Shown piece after piece: positions 7,217-20,327 of a DNA stretch of 22,599 nt. Location: the IMG/VR virus record IMGVR_UViG_3300020172_001232, positions 1 to 22,599 of that record. One strand, 5' to 3'. The DNA comes from a virus. The notes below the pieces were generated by a model. It saw only the letters and a program-made list of their open reading frames with translations, had not been told where the DNA came from and searched no databases. The position numbers and the translations under genes are program-made. The first letter of the stretch is position 1, and each line of letters starts with the position of its first letter.

Positions 7217-7735
7217 TCAGACGGTGGGATTGGACAACATGCCGAGCGCATCTGCAAGCAGATTCTTCGCTTGCTCGATCATCTGCGTCGGCGTGCTGGG
7301 TTGGGGTTGGGGCTGCTGCGCCAGCGTCATGTGGACCCTGCGCCACGACTCCAGTTCAGCGATGCGCTGCGACATCTCAGCGAGCTTCGCCTCCATCTCT
7401 GCCATCACTGCGTCCTTGATGCTGTCGGCGTCGGGGACGCTGATGTGTTCGGACAGGGCGTTGAGGTCGATCTCGTTGGCGAGGCTGCTGAGGCAGACCT
7501 CATTGGCAATCTCGTCCATAGGCAGGTCGCACGCGATGTCGCTCGCGTCGATGTGCCGGGCGACGTCGGACGCGTCGATGTCGAGCGACTCGATGACGCG
7601 CTCCTTGATCGCGTCGTAGTCCACATTGTCGCAGACGCTGTCATGCAGACGGTCGGCCAGGATGGCGTAGTCGATCTCCGGCTTGGCGTGCTGCTGGATG
7701 AGGGAAATGATGGCGGTCTCGATTGCGTTCGTCAT
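7217..7735 (-). CDS. Hypothetical acidic repeat-like coiled-coil protein
   Basis: A 172-residue protein, MTNAIETAIISLIQQHAKPE onward. The middle contains repeated short acidic helices of the form hydrophobic-Asp-x-x-x-hydrophobic (DYAILADRL, DYDAIKERV, DASDVARHI, DASDIACDL, MDEIANEV, LNALSEHI), suggesting an internal repeat of about 12 to 20 residues. A coiled coil (EMEAKLAEMSQRIAELESW) and a Gln/Pro tail follow. The ATG at 7735 lies about 40 nt after the 3' end of the type II hammerhead ribozyme, in an A-rich leader with only a weak AGAGA site. No family was recognised. Confidence 0.72.
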   Translation of the reverse strand: MTNAIETAIISLIQQHAKPEIDYAILADRLHDSVCDNVDYDAIKERVIESLDIDASDVARHIDASDIACDLPMDEIANEVCLSSLANEIDLNALSEHISVPDADSIKDAVMAEMEAKLAEMSQRIAELESWRRVHMTLAQQPQPQPSTPTQMIEQAKNLLADALGMLSNPTV

Positions 7736-7775
7736 TGCTAGTTCTCTGTCTGTTGGTATGTGCTGATTGGCAAAG

Positions 7776-7827
7776 GGCCTCATCAGGTGGTGCGTAACAC
7801 CACGACCGGGCTGTCCCGGTTTCGGCC
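7776..7827 (-). ncRNA. Hammerhead self-cleaving ribozyme, stem II open (type II)
   Basis: Read on the minus strand, every core element is present. GGCC (7827..7824, stem II 3' arm) is followed by GAAA (7823..7820). Stem III pairs ACCGGG with CCCGGT around loop ACAG. The cleavage triplet GTC ends at C7804. Stem I, GTGGTG/CACCAC, has loop TTACG. CTGATGA (7786..7780) precedes GGCC (7779..7776, stem II 5' arm). Predicted cleavage falls between 7804 and 7803. The first G of the ribozyme is the last base of the TAG stop of the zinc-ribbon gene. Stem II is only 4 bp. Confidence 0.88.
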
Positions 7828-7973
7828 TAGTCTTCTGCGTCGTTGTCCTCCTCAATGATTTCGGACGGCAGGCTGTAGTCGGTGCCACAGTAGCGGCACC
7901 GGAAGTGTGCGAGATTGCCAAGGATACCGAGCAGCACGGGCATGTCGGCATTGCAGGCGGGGCAGCAGATCAT
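7827..7973 (-). CDS. Mini zinc-ribbon protein (48 residues)
   Basis: A 48-residue protein starting MICCPACNADMPVLLGILGN, with CPAC near residues 4 to 7 and CRYC near 27 to 30, a classic four-Cys ribbon, followed by an acidic tail (EIIEEDNDAED). The ATG at 7973 overlaps the upstream TGA (ATGA). A longer start at 8015 lies inside the upstream gene. Its TAG stop runs into the first base of the hammerhead ribozyme, so terminating ribosomes would sit on the ribozyme. Confidence 0.75.
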   Translation of the reverse strand: MICCPACNADMPVLLGILGNLAHFRCRYCGTDYSLPSEIIEEDNDAED

Positions 7974-8203
7974 TGCTCCACCGTCTTGTTTGCGGCATCG
8001 ATCATGCGATTCCACGCACGCGTCCGACTTGCCTTCGCACGGGACAGGTGCGACTGGAGCGTGCGGACCTGGACGAGCAGGCCATCGATCTCATGCTCGA
8101 TGTCTTCGGCCCTATTAGAAGCAGCCTCAAACACATCGACGAGGTCGGGCACGATGTTGTAGAGGTCGGTGATTGCAAGCTTGCTGCTGAGATTGTGTTC
8201 CAT
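7970..8203 (-). CDS. Hypothetical helical protein
   Basis: A 77-residue protein from the ATG at 8203 (MEHNLSSKLAITDLYNIVPD). Alternatively it has 89 residues from the GTG at 8239, which overlaps the TGA of the small membrane-protein gene (GTGA). The ATG is preferred because the 17 nt before it (CCAACCAACAAACCAAC) look like the A/C-only leaders of this operon, although no Shine-Dalgarno site is seen for either start. The protein is one long helical hairpin with a coiled-coil pattern (DIEHEIDGLLVQVRTLQSHL) and a basic end. Function unknown. Confidence 0.68.
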   Translation of the reverse strand: MEHNLSSKLAITDLYNIVPDLVDVFEAASNRAEDIEHEIDGLLVQVRTLQSHLSRAKASRTRAWNRMIDAANKTVEQ

Positions 8204-8235
8204 GTTGGTTTGTTGGTTGGCTGATTGTGATGCGC

Positions 8236-8334
8236 TCACCCAAGCAGGGCGAGCGCGAGAAGGGCGAGCATCAGCGCAATGCTGACTGCCTGTTCGATGC
8301 GGAACATGATACGCTTGGTGCGGAACGTGGTCAT
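8236..8334 (-). CDS. Tiny single-span membrane protein (32 residues)
   Basis: The ATG at 8334 with AAGGA about 7 nt upstream opens MTTFRTKRIMFRIEQAVSIA followed by LMLALLALALLG and TGA. A basic N-terminus followed by an unbroken hydrophobic helix indicates a type II single-span inner-membrane peptide. The stop overlaps a GTG that could start the next gene. The leader ACACACAATG matches those of the neighbouring genes. Size and topology would fit a small holin-like or regulatory peptide, but there is no direct evidence for a function. Confidence 0.6.
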   Translation of the reverse strand: MTTFRTKRIMFRIEQAVSIALMLALLALALLG

Positions 8335-8356
8335 TGTGTGTGTCCTTGTGTGTGTG

Positions 8357-8779
8357 TCAGTCGAAGCGCGAGTCCCAGCCGACTTCACTGTGGCCGAGCG
8401 TGTTCATGTGTTCTGCGAACGCCTGAGCGAACGCCTCCTTGAGCGTGTGCGATTGCTCGAACGCCTGGATCGACAGTTCGATGCGCTTGTGCCATGCGCT
8501 GCTGCGCCATCCCAGTTCGCCTTCGGCAAACTTGGCAAGCTTGCAATTGCGAGGGCGGATCGTGATGTGTGCGAACCCACAAGGACCGCCAGGGATTTCG
8601 TGAACCTCCCCAGTGAACGTGTTACGGATCAGCATAGGCTCGACCTTGACGGTCTTCACATGCTCAGTCGCATGCGCCCAGGCTGCTTCGATGTCATTGC
8701 GGAACCTGATACGGAGCGCAGCGCGCTCGGCCTTCTCGTGCGCGATCTTCTCGCGCAGACTGTTGAATTGCGTGGTCAT
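8357..8779 (-). CDS. Hypothetical protein
   Basis: A 140-residue protein, MTTQFNSLREKIAHEKAERA onward. An N-terminal charged helix (about 1 to 40) is followed by a beta-rich middle (VEPMLIRNTFTGEVHEIPGG, AHITIRP) and a helical C-terminus. GGAG is 7 nt upstream of the ATG at 8779, in the leader GGAGACACACAATG. The open frame continuing to 8866 crosses the CA-rich spacer and is not used. No domain was recognised. Confidence 0.72.
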   Translation of the reverse strand: MTTQFNSLREKIAHEKAERAALRIRFRNDIEAAWAHATEHVKTVKVEPMLIRNTFTGEVHEIPGGPCGFAHITIRPRNCKLAKFAEGELGWRSSAWHKRIELSIQAFEQSHTLKEAFAQAFAEHMNTLGHSEVGWDSRFD

Positions 8780-8805
8780 TGTGTGTCTCCTTGTTTGTGT
8801 GTGTG

Positions 8806-9054
8806 TCAGAAGTCGGGGCATTCCTGTTCTGGGGCAGCGTCGATTTCCAGGTCTCGCAGTCGGCATGCTTCGCGATACGAGTATTCTACGACCTCCATGG
8901 CTGCGCGAGCGGCCTTGATGATCTTGATCGCATTGGAACCCGGCAGGTGGCCGGATTCAAAGATTGCGGATTCCATCGCCCGGATGATGGTGCGCGCTCC
9001 CTCATACTCATACGAGCGATTAAGCGCGAAACGTGCCATATCGATGTTCTTCAT
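8806..9054 (-). CDS. Hypothetical helical protein behind the type III ribozyme
   Basis: An 82-residue protein, MKNIDMARFALNRSYEYEGA onward, with helical Ala-rich segments (AIKIIKAARAAMEVVEYSY) and an acidic C-terminus. The ATG at 9054 has no Shine-Dalgarno site. It is preceded by about ten CA dinucleotides that also form part of stem III of the hammerhead ribozyme. After self-cleavage its message would start inside the ribozyme with a 5' hydroxyl. Function unknown. Confidence 0.7.
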   Translation of the reverse strand: MKNIDMARFALNRSYEYEGARTIIRAMESAIFESGHLPGSNAIKIIKAARAAMEVVEYSYREACRLRDLEIDAAPEQECPDF

Positions 9055-9075
9055 TGTGTGTGTGTGTGTGTGTGT
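9055..9075 (-). repeat. (CA)10 dinucleotide repeat leader
   Basis: The plus strand reads (TG)10T, so the transcript has about ten CA units directly before the ATG at 9054. It replaces a ribosome-binding site and its outer part pairs with GTGTGT in stem III of the hammerhead. Similar but shorter ACACACA leaders precede the ATGs at 8334 and 8779. A dinucleotide tract of this length can change by slippage. Confidence 0.8.
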
Positions 9076-9131
9076 CGGTTTCGGCCTACTGGGCCTCATC
9101 AGGTGCGGTACACACCGCACGACCGACACAC
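9070..9131 (-). ncRNA. Hammerhead self-cleaving ribozyme, stem III open (type III)
   Basis: Read on the minus strand, stem III 5' arm GTGTGTCGGT (9131..9122) is followed by C9121, the cleavage site of a GTC triplet. Stem I, GTGCGGT/ACCGCAC, has loop GTGT. CTGATGA spans 9102..9096. Stem II, GGCC/GGCC, has loop CAGTA. GAAA (9082..9079) continues into CCGACACAC, which closes a 10-bp stem III. All conserved core bases are present. Predicted cleavage falls between 9121 and 9120. The element begins 2 nt after the TGA of the 248-residue gene and ends in the leader of the next. Confidence 0.9.
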
Positions 9132-9133
9132 GG

Positions 9134-9880
9134 TCAGCGAACGTATTGCTTCGCCGTTCCGTGTGCATTGATCCAGACATCAATCTTCTGCCCATTGCAT
9201 GCGCCACATGTCGCACAATCCAGGCCGTTCCTATCGGCCAGACACTGGATACTGCGTCGGCCAGTATCAGGCGCGCCGACAGCATCGACGGGACGGACAA
9301 GGAATGCATGCCAGCCTGCCCTTGCTGCGTCGGCTGCGTCTAGGACGCTGTCGCATGATGCTTGGCAAAGATCGCGCATGCGAACGTCGCACGTGCGCCA
9401 CTGGTGGGTATAACCCGTGCGCTTGATCGTGGGGAAGCGCAGAAGCATCGACCATACGTCGAACGGCGCAGCAGCAGGGTCTCCGTATGTTCCAAGACGG
9501 ACGGGCTTGCCATTGCTGGCCGCAATTACGTCGGCCATCGTGCCGACAGCATAGCGGCCCTTCTTGTAGGCCTTCCAAATCGAGTTTGGACCCTGCCCGA
9601 CGTTCACGTAGCAGGTCCGAACCTTCTTCGTCTTGCCATTCTTCGCGTGCGTCTTAAGCCCGCCACGATGAGGGCAGTGGCCACAGATGGACACATCGAG
9701 CGCGCTGGCAATTGCAGCCGTAGGGCTGATATCAGCGCGAAGGATGACGACCTGTACCATATCGCCAGTCTTCCGGTTCTTTGCAGGCTTGCTGATAGCC
9801 GTAGCGATCACGACAATGGGCGCGCCATCGATCACTGACGGCCCTTCGTAGATTACAAATCCGAGCGGTTTCTTGCCCAT
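9134..9880 (-). CDS. Conserved Cys-rich phage protein, unknown function
   Basis: A 248-residue protein, MGKKPLGFVIYEGPSVIDGA onward. It belongs to a widespread but uncharacterised phage family by pattern. CGHCPHRGG near 66 to 74 is followed by RTCYVNVGQGPNSIW, then KGRYAV, RLGTYGDPAAAPFDVW, TGYTHQW, and CQASCDS, with a C-terminal CATCGAC. The Cys/His clusters suggest metal binding. AGGAG is about 9 nt upstream of the ATG at 9880, behind an AACC-repeat leader. The stop is followed within 2 nt by the type III hammerhead. I recall this family near phage replication genes, but no activity can be assigned. Confidence 0.8.
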   Translation of the reverse strand: MGKKPLGFVIYEGPSVIDGAPIVVIATAISKPAKNRKTGDMVQVVILRADISPTAAIASALDVSICGHCPHRGGLKTHAKNGKTKKVRTCYVNVGQGPNSIWKAYKKGRYAVGTMADVIAASNGKPVRLGTYGDPAAAPFDVWSMLLRFPTIKRTGYTHQWRTCDVRMRDLCQASCDSVLDAADAARAGWHAFLVRPVDAVGAPDTGRRSIQCLADRNGLDCATCGACNGQKIDVWINAHGTAKQYVR

Positions 9881-19274: not shown

Positions 19275-20327
19275 ATGGCAGTTCTTAGCACCAACAATCT
19301 TACTCTTCTTGATCACGCAAAGCGTCTGGACCCTGAGGGTCGTATTGCGACGATTGCGGAACTTCTCTCGACTTCGAACGAGATCCTTACGGATTGCGTT
19401 TGGAAGGAGTCGAACCTCCCTACGGGCCATCGTGAGGTGATTCGTACGGGTCTGCCGGATGTCTACTGGCGTTCGCTGAACCAGGGTATCCCGAGCAGCA
19501 AGTCCACGACTGCTCAGGTCGATGAGGCGTGCGCGATCATGGAAGCGCGCAGTGAGGTCGATAAGGATCTCGCAATGTTGAACGGCAACACGGCTGCTTT
19601 CCGTCTGTCGGAAGACGCTGCGTTCCTTGAGGCCATGAATCAGCGCATGGCTACGACGCTGTTCTATGGCAACCCGGCTACTGATCCTAAGGAATTCTTG
19701 GGTCTGGCTAACCGCTACAACAGCACGGCTGCTGGTAACGGCCAAAACGTGCTTCTGGCTGGCGGCACTGCTGAAGTTAGCGGTCCCACCGATCTTACGT
19801 CGATCTATCTTGCGTGCTGGGGCGATCAAACGATTTTCTGCCCGTTCCCGAAGGGTAGCAAGGCTGGCCTGATCCATGAAGATCTTGGCGAGCAGACGGT
19901 CTATACAAACGGTGGTAGCGTTGCAGAGCGCATGCAGGCTCTCGTCACGCGTTACCAGTGGAAGTGTGGTCTCATGGTCAAGGATTGGCGTTATGCGGTT
20001 CGCATTGCCAACATTGACGTTGACGACCTTGTTGGACTCAATGGCAATCAAGGTCTTACGGCTGGCGAATACGACACGAACATCATTCACTTGATGGCTC
20101 GCGCTGTTTACCGCCTGCCTTCGCAGTCGATGGGTCGCTGCGCTTTCTACATGAACCGCACGACGCACAGTGCGCTGTCGCGAATGGCGATGGAGAAGTC
20201 GCTTGGCGTGATGGGCATTGAGCAGGGCCTTACGCAGTTTGGCACGGCTCAGAGCTACCTGACGTTCCTTGGCATCCCGATTCGTCGTTGCGATGCTATC
20301 ACCAACAACGAAGCCCAGATTAGCTGA
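19275..20327 (+). CDS. Major capsid protein (HK97-fold, BPP-1 type)
   Basis: A 350-residue shell subunit. The N-terminal LDHAKRLDPEGRIATIAELL is typical of this capsid family. NEILTDCVWKESNLPTGHRE, VYWRSLNQGIPSSKSTTAQV and EDAAFLEAMNQRMATTLFYG follow, then the core with GKAGLIHEDLGEQ-like segments and KCGLMVKDWRYAVRIANIDV. The C-terminal TFLGIPIRRCDAITNNEAQI is the final axial-domain strand. The length is usual for podoviruses of this kind. Strong codon preference and position after the scaffold support high expression. An 11-nt gap with GAGGAGG leads to the first cement gene. Confidence 0.93.
   Translation: MAVLSTNNLTLLDHAKRLDPEGRIATIAELLSTSNEILTDCVWKESNLPTGHREVIRTGLPDVYWRSLNQGIPSSKSTTAQVDEACAIMEARSEVDKDLAMLNGNTAAFRLSEDAAFLEAMNQRMATTLFYGNPATDPKEFLGLANRYNSTAAGNGQNVLLAGGTAEVSGPTDLTSIYLACWGDQTIFCPFPKGSKAGLIHEDLGEQTVYTNGGSVAERMQALVTRYQWKCGLMVKDWRYAVRIANIDVDDLVGLNGNQGLTAGEYDTNIIHLMARAVYRLPSQSMGRCAFYMNRTTHSALSRMAMEKSLGVMGIEQGLTQFGTAQSYLTFLGIPIRRCDAITNNEAQIS

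Follow-up and report, generated by a model that had tools for sequence, protein, structure and literature searches.

The stretch of DNA analysed here (the window; 22,599 nucleotides, a 22.6-kb virus record with a phage terminase, a head-tail adaptor, a major head protein and a DnaC-like loader) carries on its minus strand, at 7776-7827, an element whose identity as a genuine type II hammerhead is near certain. The ribozyme probably cuts in cis a polycistronic phage transcript, just after the stop codon of a zinc-ribbon gene. This reading is based on the motif, on covariation across its class, on its co-orientation with the genes and on its place between a stop and a start codon. Self-cleavage of the predicted ribozyme is very likely, and tandem hammerheads of the (pro)phage type were reported to cleave both in vitro and in E. 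coli (PMC3088659). We infer that the element is active in vivo and that the separation of messages, so that the stability or translation of each can change independently, is the selected function.

Sequence and fold of the element

The minus strand was read from 7827 to 7776 as GGCC, GAAA, CCGGG, ACAG, CCCGG, UC, GUGGUG, UUACG, CACCAC, CUGAUGA and GGCC, in that order. The features of the element are as follows.

7776-7827, minus strand: type II hammerhead, stem II open, 4 bp GGCC/GGCC (grammar scan, fold, shuffles and class covariation)
7827-7824, minus strand: 5' strand of stem II, GGCC (sequence)
7820-7823, minus strand: core GAAA (sequence)
7814-7811, minus strand: loop ACAG of stem III, ACCGGG/CCCGGU (sequence)
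7804, minus strand: C17 of the cleavage triplet GUC (sequence)
7803-7804, minus strand: predicted cleavage, C7804/G7803, at the GUC triplet (sequence and established hammerhead chemistry)
7797-7793, minus strand: loop UUACG of stem I, GUGGUG/CACCAC (sequence)
7780-7786, minus strand: core CUGAUGA (sequence)
7779-7776, minus strand: 3' strand of stem II, GGCC (sequence)

The CUGANGA, GAAA and NUH core elements are in the correct order and joined by three helices; stems I and III are closed by loops and the 5' and 3' ends both lie in stem II, which is the type II permutation. The first-pass annotation had described a complete type II hammerhead on this strand, and every core position and the three stems were recovered by sequence reading, folding and a grammar scan. 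The cut that it placed between 7804 and 7803 agrees with the GUC triplet (C17 = 7804), and the open stem II of 4 bp is present at 7827-7824/7779-7776. The gene setting it gave was also confirmed: the UAG at 7829-7827 closes a CxxC/CxxC ORF, and 7735 is the start of a 172-aa ORF.

The minimum free energy (MFE) structure of the 52-mer was the hammerhead fold (-24.8 kcal/mol, z -3.0), to which a single U-G pair within loop I was added. Scanning both strands of the whole window with a strict grammar for the three topologies gave 2 matches only, the type II element and one of type III (9131-9070), with scores of 17 and 19; 1000 dinucleotide shuffles of the window gave 12 matches of any type, none scoring as high as 17.

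The check proposed in the first-pass annotation, a covariance search with the Rfam type II model (RF02276), gave 19.0 bits (E 0.11 in a 201-base scan) at the element, under the gathering score of 37, and the element was absent from the list of the whole-window E-value scan. The check fails because RF02276 fits the phage subclass poorly. RF02275 (Hammerhead_HH9), sought as an alternative family, gave no match at the element; elsewhere in the window it gave a weak and probably chance match (19701-19746, minus strand; 21.1 bits, E 0.47), antisense in the head protein gene. A covariance model built from 27 class members, the window included, gave 70.5 bits for the element, a score that is high by construction. 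The low Rfam score, together with the different MFE fold of the longer RNA (see below), would fit a decayed or chance hammerhead-like sequence without activity, but this is very improbable: all core bases are intact, none of the 1000 shuffles produced a comparable match, all features of the class are present and a second hammerhead lies in the same operon.

Operon context and a second hammerhead

The first-pass annotation had overlooked the type III hammerhead, and also that the type II ribozyme includes the stop codon. The features of the operon are as follows.

9134-9880, minus strand: PHROG 2554 ORF (unknown function), with its 3' end just before the type III hammerhead
9073-9128, minus strand: type III hammerhead (stem III open), predicted cut C9121/G9120 (Rfam RF00008, grammar scan and fold)
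8806-9054, minus strand: 82-aa ORF directly 3' of the type III hammerhead, the first inter-ribozyme gene
7827-8015, minus strand: small CxxC/CxxC (zinc-ribbon-like) ORF, PHROG 33891, upstream of the type II hammerhead
7827-7829, minus strand: UAG that ends the zinc-ribbon ORF; the A serves as the conserved -1 A and the G as the outermost base of stem II
7804-9120, minus strand: 1,317-nt RNA with four small ORFs that would be freed by both predicted cuts
7217-7735, minus strand: 172-aa ORF downstream of the type II element, with no family matches

The type III element lies 1.3 kb upstream of the type II element on the same strand, in the gap between the stop of the PHROG 2554 gene (9134) and the ATG of the 82-aa gene (9054). 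It has the hammerhead core, an open stem III that can be lengthened to 9070-9131, and a covariance match to RF00008 of 41.1 bits (E 1e-7 in 401 bases, 5.8e-6 in the window), below the gathering score of 48.5. This match is stronger than the Rfam match of the type II element, and the fold survives 100-nt flanks. The element agrees with the RF00008 model, and its setting is a phage operon, not a plant satellite RNA or a retrozyme. The zinc-ribbon-like ORF may start at an ATG (7973) or a GTG (8015). CA-repeat leaders (ACACAC...) precede two genes, at 9055-9078 and 8780-8809 (minus strand); the former is without a Shine-Dalgarno sequence and also lengthens stem III of the type III hammerhead. A tRNA gene with the anticodon loop CAU is found at 2488-2558 on the plus strand (Rfam RF00005, 58.9 bits).

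After cleavage of the type II element, the upstream message would keep its stop codon and 23 nt and would end in the stem III hairpin with a 2',3'-cyclic phosphate. The downstream message would start 68 nt ahead of its ATG, with a 5'-OH and the hairpin of stem I, and would retain its ribosome-binding site, so that the cut would leave both neighbouring genes translatable. With the upstream type III hammerhead, the transcript would be split into at least three pieces; the leaders downstream of the two cuts are 66 and 68 nt.

Because two hammerheads on the same strand bracket 1,317 nt, the excised segment with its four small genes could also give rise to a circular or specially protected RNA. Hammerhead cleavage ends are compatible with ligation. 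Formation of such an RNA is nevertheless hardly to be expected, since the two ribozymes are of different topologies, which sets them apart from retrozyme repeats, and spliced or circular products of tandem phage hammerheads were sought and none detected (PMC3088659).

More than one hammerhead brackets genes on one strand of the window, as in the clustered phage and prophage hammerheads reported previously (PMC3088659, Figure 3), in which single genes or small gene blocks are flanked by several same-strand hammerheads, at times of mixed types; stop codons are not mentioned in the main text of that paper, and the window ribozyme is fused to the stop codon that precedes it. In 2011, prophage genes flanked by several hammerheads were described, with processing into operon- or gene-length mRNAs as the proposed role (PMC3088659), and hammerheads are enriched near genes of Mu-like phages (PMC10085705). 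The novelty implied in the first-pass annotation is therefore lower than suggested: gene-flanking prophage hammerheads had already been reported (PMC3088659), and the window element is a further example of these known phage ribozymes.

The phage type II class

Relatives were collected with a pattern in which the core and the GGCC stem II were fixed and the stem I and stem III regions were left as free inserts. The pattern matched 86 stretches in IMG/VR and 15 in GTDB genomes. Stems I and III (at least 4 bp each) were both formed in 90 of the 96 distinct matches, as compared to 89 of 20,000 random inserts (0.45%). Five of the six exceptions were from GTDB bacterial or archaeal contigs; these resemble chance coding matches or have a broken pair, and the sixth is similar.

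Twenty-seven members of equal length were aligned without gaps, with 99.5% of the cells paired against 69.7% after shuffling; the rows came from unrelated contexts and were picked for the presence of the stems, and the pairing percentage is in part the result of this selection. The two-sided changes and the unselected pattern test (90/96) are free of it. Among the 27 members the covariation score was 0.684 as compared to 0.137 in shuffles, with 0 of 500 shuffles as high, and the signal was abolished by sliding the stem partners; the helices are supported by compensatory change among relatives. A second set was obtained with a stem II of GGTC/GACC (at least 120 stretches), and both stems were present in 116 of 118 distinct elements, among the matches listed. 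The class is larger in viral contigs than the counts given.

At its gathering score, the Rfam type II model gave 1 match in 20 loci that hold about 26 elements by the grammar. The model misses a common phage subclass, and annotation undercounts such ribozymes.

The A immediately 5' of stem II was present in 108 of 115 distinct elements and, among the matches listed for the second set, in 158 of 166; the seven exceptions in the first set were all U, all with stem I regions of 22-23 nt. The position immediately 3' of stem II was A in 86/115 and, in the second set, among the matches listed, in 128/166. Given a 17-nt stem I region, loop I began with U in 93/93 elements (second set 142/144, among the matches listed). 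The window element carries the class features -1 A, U-first loop I and 17-nt stem I region. A reverse-Hoogsteen type contact is on record from type I and III hammerheads (PMC6155905); a loop I U with an A adjacent to stem II would be expected if the class uses such a contact.

A pseudoknot between loop I and the tail has been reported for most type II hammerheads (PMC3088659). In the window, no complementarity of 3 nt or more was found between the two, and in this the element departs from the type II consensus of Perreault et al. In the class, no pseudoknot excess was found over tails swapped among members (13.9% and 13.9%), and stem II was not lengthened past 4 bp, one offset of seven being slightly high. 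The class shares with the type II hammerheads of Perreault et al. (2011; PMC3088659; RF02276) the core, the topology and a short stem II. Those elements also lie between phage or prophage genes, several per region (PMC3088659). Unlike them, the window class is without the loop I-tail pseudoknot, has a short U-first loop I and a nearly invariant A before stem II, and scores below the Rfam gathering score.

An exact search of viral contigs with the window's own stems found nothing, and a distant blastn search for close phage relatives gave no match among annotated phages. The scarcity of recognisable ribozymes near close relatives of a neighbouring gene counts against the main reading, as does the missing pseudoknot: among ten loci that carry a relative of the 9134-9880 gene there was no clear hammerhead, except for a weak type II-like one in L009 (8903-8969, plus strand; 20.3 bits), which has an extra U before stem II. 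It lies one small ORF downstream of the relative of the 9134-9880 gene, and a stop codon is found 2 nt upstream.

The viral records with most type II elements held 11, 8 and 7 in single contigs. One of these records (L013; 67,627 bases) has eleven type II hammerheads in about 5 kb, each behind a different small gene. In 53 of 54 loci with several hammerheads all copies were on one strand, and eight loci besides the window mix types II and III. A census of elements with a closed GGCC stem II gave at least 65 of type I and at least 50 of type III, and protection by a 5' hairpin as a general rule, in which types II and III would be expected to dominate, was ruled out by this census.

Stop-codon docking and the AUCAG tail

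An element was scored as docked when an ORF (40 aa or longer) had its stop codon ending between -1 and +4 nt from the ribozyme. This held for 71 of the 114 distinct type II elements, as compared to 1.8% of positions drawn at random from those contigs. The independent second set, for which the tests were fixed in advance, gave 119/166 among the matches listed (random positions 2.4%). The most frequent arrangement (22 elements, including that of the window) was a UAG with its G as the first base of stem II and its A as the conserved A. Docking is also seen where stem II is not GGCC (12/23). The upstream ORFs comprised 82 families among 89 in the first set, 63 of them docked, and 105 of 134 upstream families were docked in the second, among the matches listed; docking is therefore not due to one gene being copied.

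For 68% of the distinct type II elements a stop codon was found within 60 nt upstream and a start codon with a Shine-Dalgarno sequence within 60 nt downstream (antisense 0%, random positions 5.5%). The Shine-Dalgarno start within 60 nt was present after 78% of the elements (random 15%), mostly 3-38 nt after the ribozyme. The minimum distance from stop to cut was at least 33 nt for type I, at least 21 nt for type II and mostly 13-64 nt for type III. A ribosome-footprint rule for this minimum was considered and dropped, as types I and II are explained by ribozyme length and docking.

Docking could mean that cutting is gated by translation: a ribosome terminating on the UAG would cover GGCC/GAAA and block folding, and the RNA would be cut only if the upstream gene is untranslated. 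The docking frequencies in the two sets, their spread over 63 and (among the matches listed) 105 upstream families, and the UAG that overlaps stem II by one base in the window speak for this reading, which we regard as unlikely; that docking was selected as a sensor, beyond compactness, is equally doubtful. The -1 A is kept in 36 of 43 undocked elements, which argues that the A is structural and that stops may dock merely because they supply it. Type I elements are also close to stops (43/86; type III, 1/45), consistent with mere compactness.

Downstream of the ribozyme a short motif complementary to the core was found.

7763-7767, minus strand: AUCAG, complementary to the core CUGAU (enriched at the class level; the copy in the window is weak by itself)

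Within 35 nt downstream of type II elements AUCAG ranked first of its 60 permutations (20 as compared to a mean of 4.4), nearly always at +1 or +2; in the second set the count was 24 against 6.7 (rank 2), with 21 at +1/+2, among the matches listed. The excess is solid at the class level. AUCAG was found after 0/44 type III and 1/90 type I elements, among the matches listed. The loci with AUCAG directly after stem II include L016, L021, L024, L042, L047, L058, L059, L073, L084 and L090, and others. The window copy is at +9, not +1, and could be a chance occurrence. Together with GGC/GCC, it is predicted to form an 8-bp alternative hairpin (7786-7763) incompatible with the ribozyme fold, and with 40-100 nt of flank the MFE structure contained this hairpin (-28.7 kcal/mol, as compared to -27.1 kcal/mol with the ribozyme enforced). 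Cleavage may therefore be partial or conditional.

The tail might act as a switch or product trap, an off-state before the cut and a block to religation after it. The type II-specific enrichment, replicated in the second set, and the predicted 8-bp version in the window point in this direction, but the motif is carried by only about one sixth of type II elements, the tail hairpin is no more stable than with shuffled tails (mean z -0.02), the core is invariant, so that covariation is uninformative, and the window motif lies at +9; a switch or trap is accordingly rather improbable. The combined reading, in which the class is welded to stop codons, translation termination sets the time of cleavage and the product is locked by a core-complementary tail, is also viewed with considerable doubt.

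The docking rule, the subclass with a U-first loop and -1 A and no pseudoknot, and the AUCAG tail were not found in the accessible literature, and an earlier description is possible; the term 'stop codon' has 0 occurrences in the main text of PMC3088659. Docking, seen in the two sets over more than 100 unrelated gene families, speaks for a role in which neighbouring messages are parted and neither is harmed. This placement bears on the role of phage hammerheads, a question since 2011, and makes a link to translation termination directly testable.
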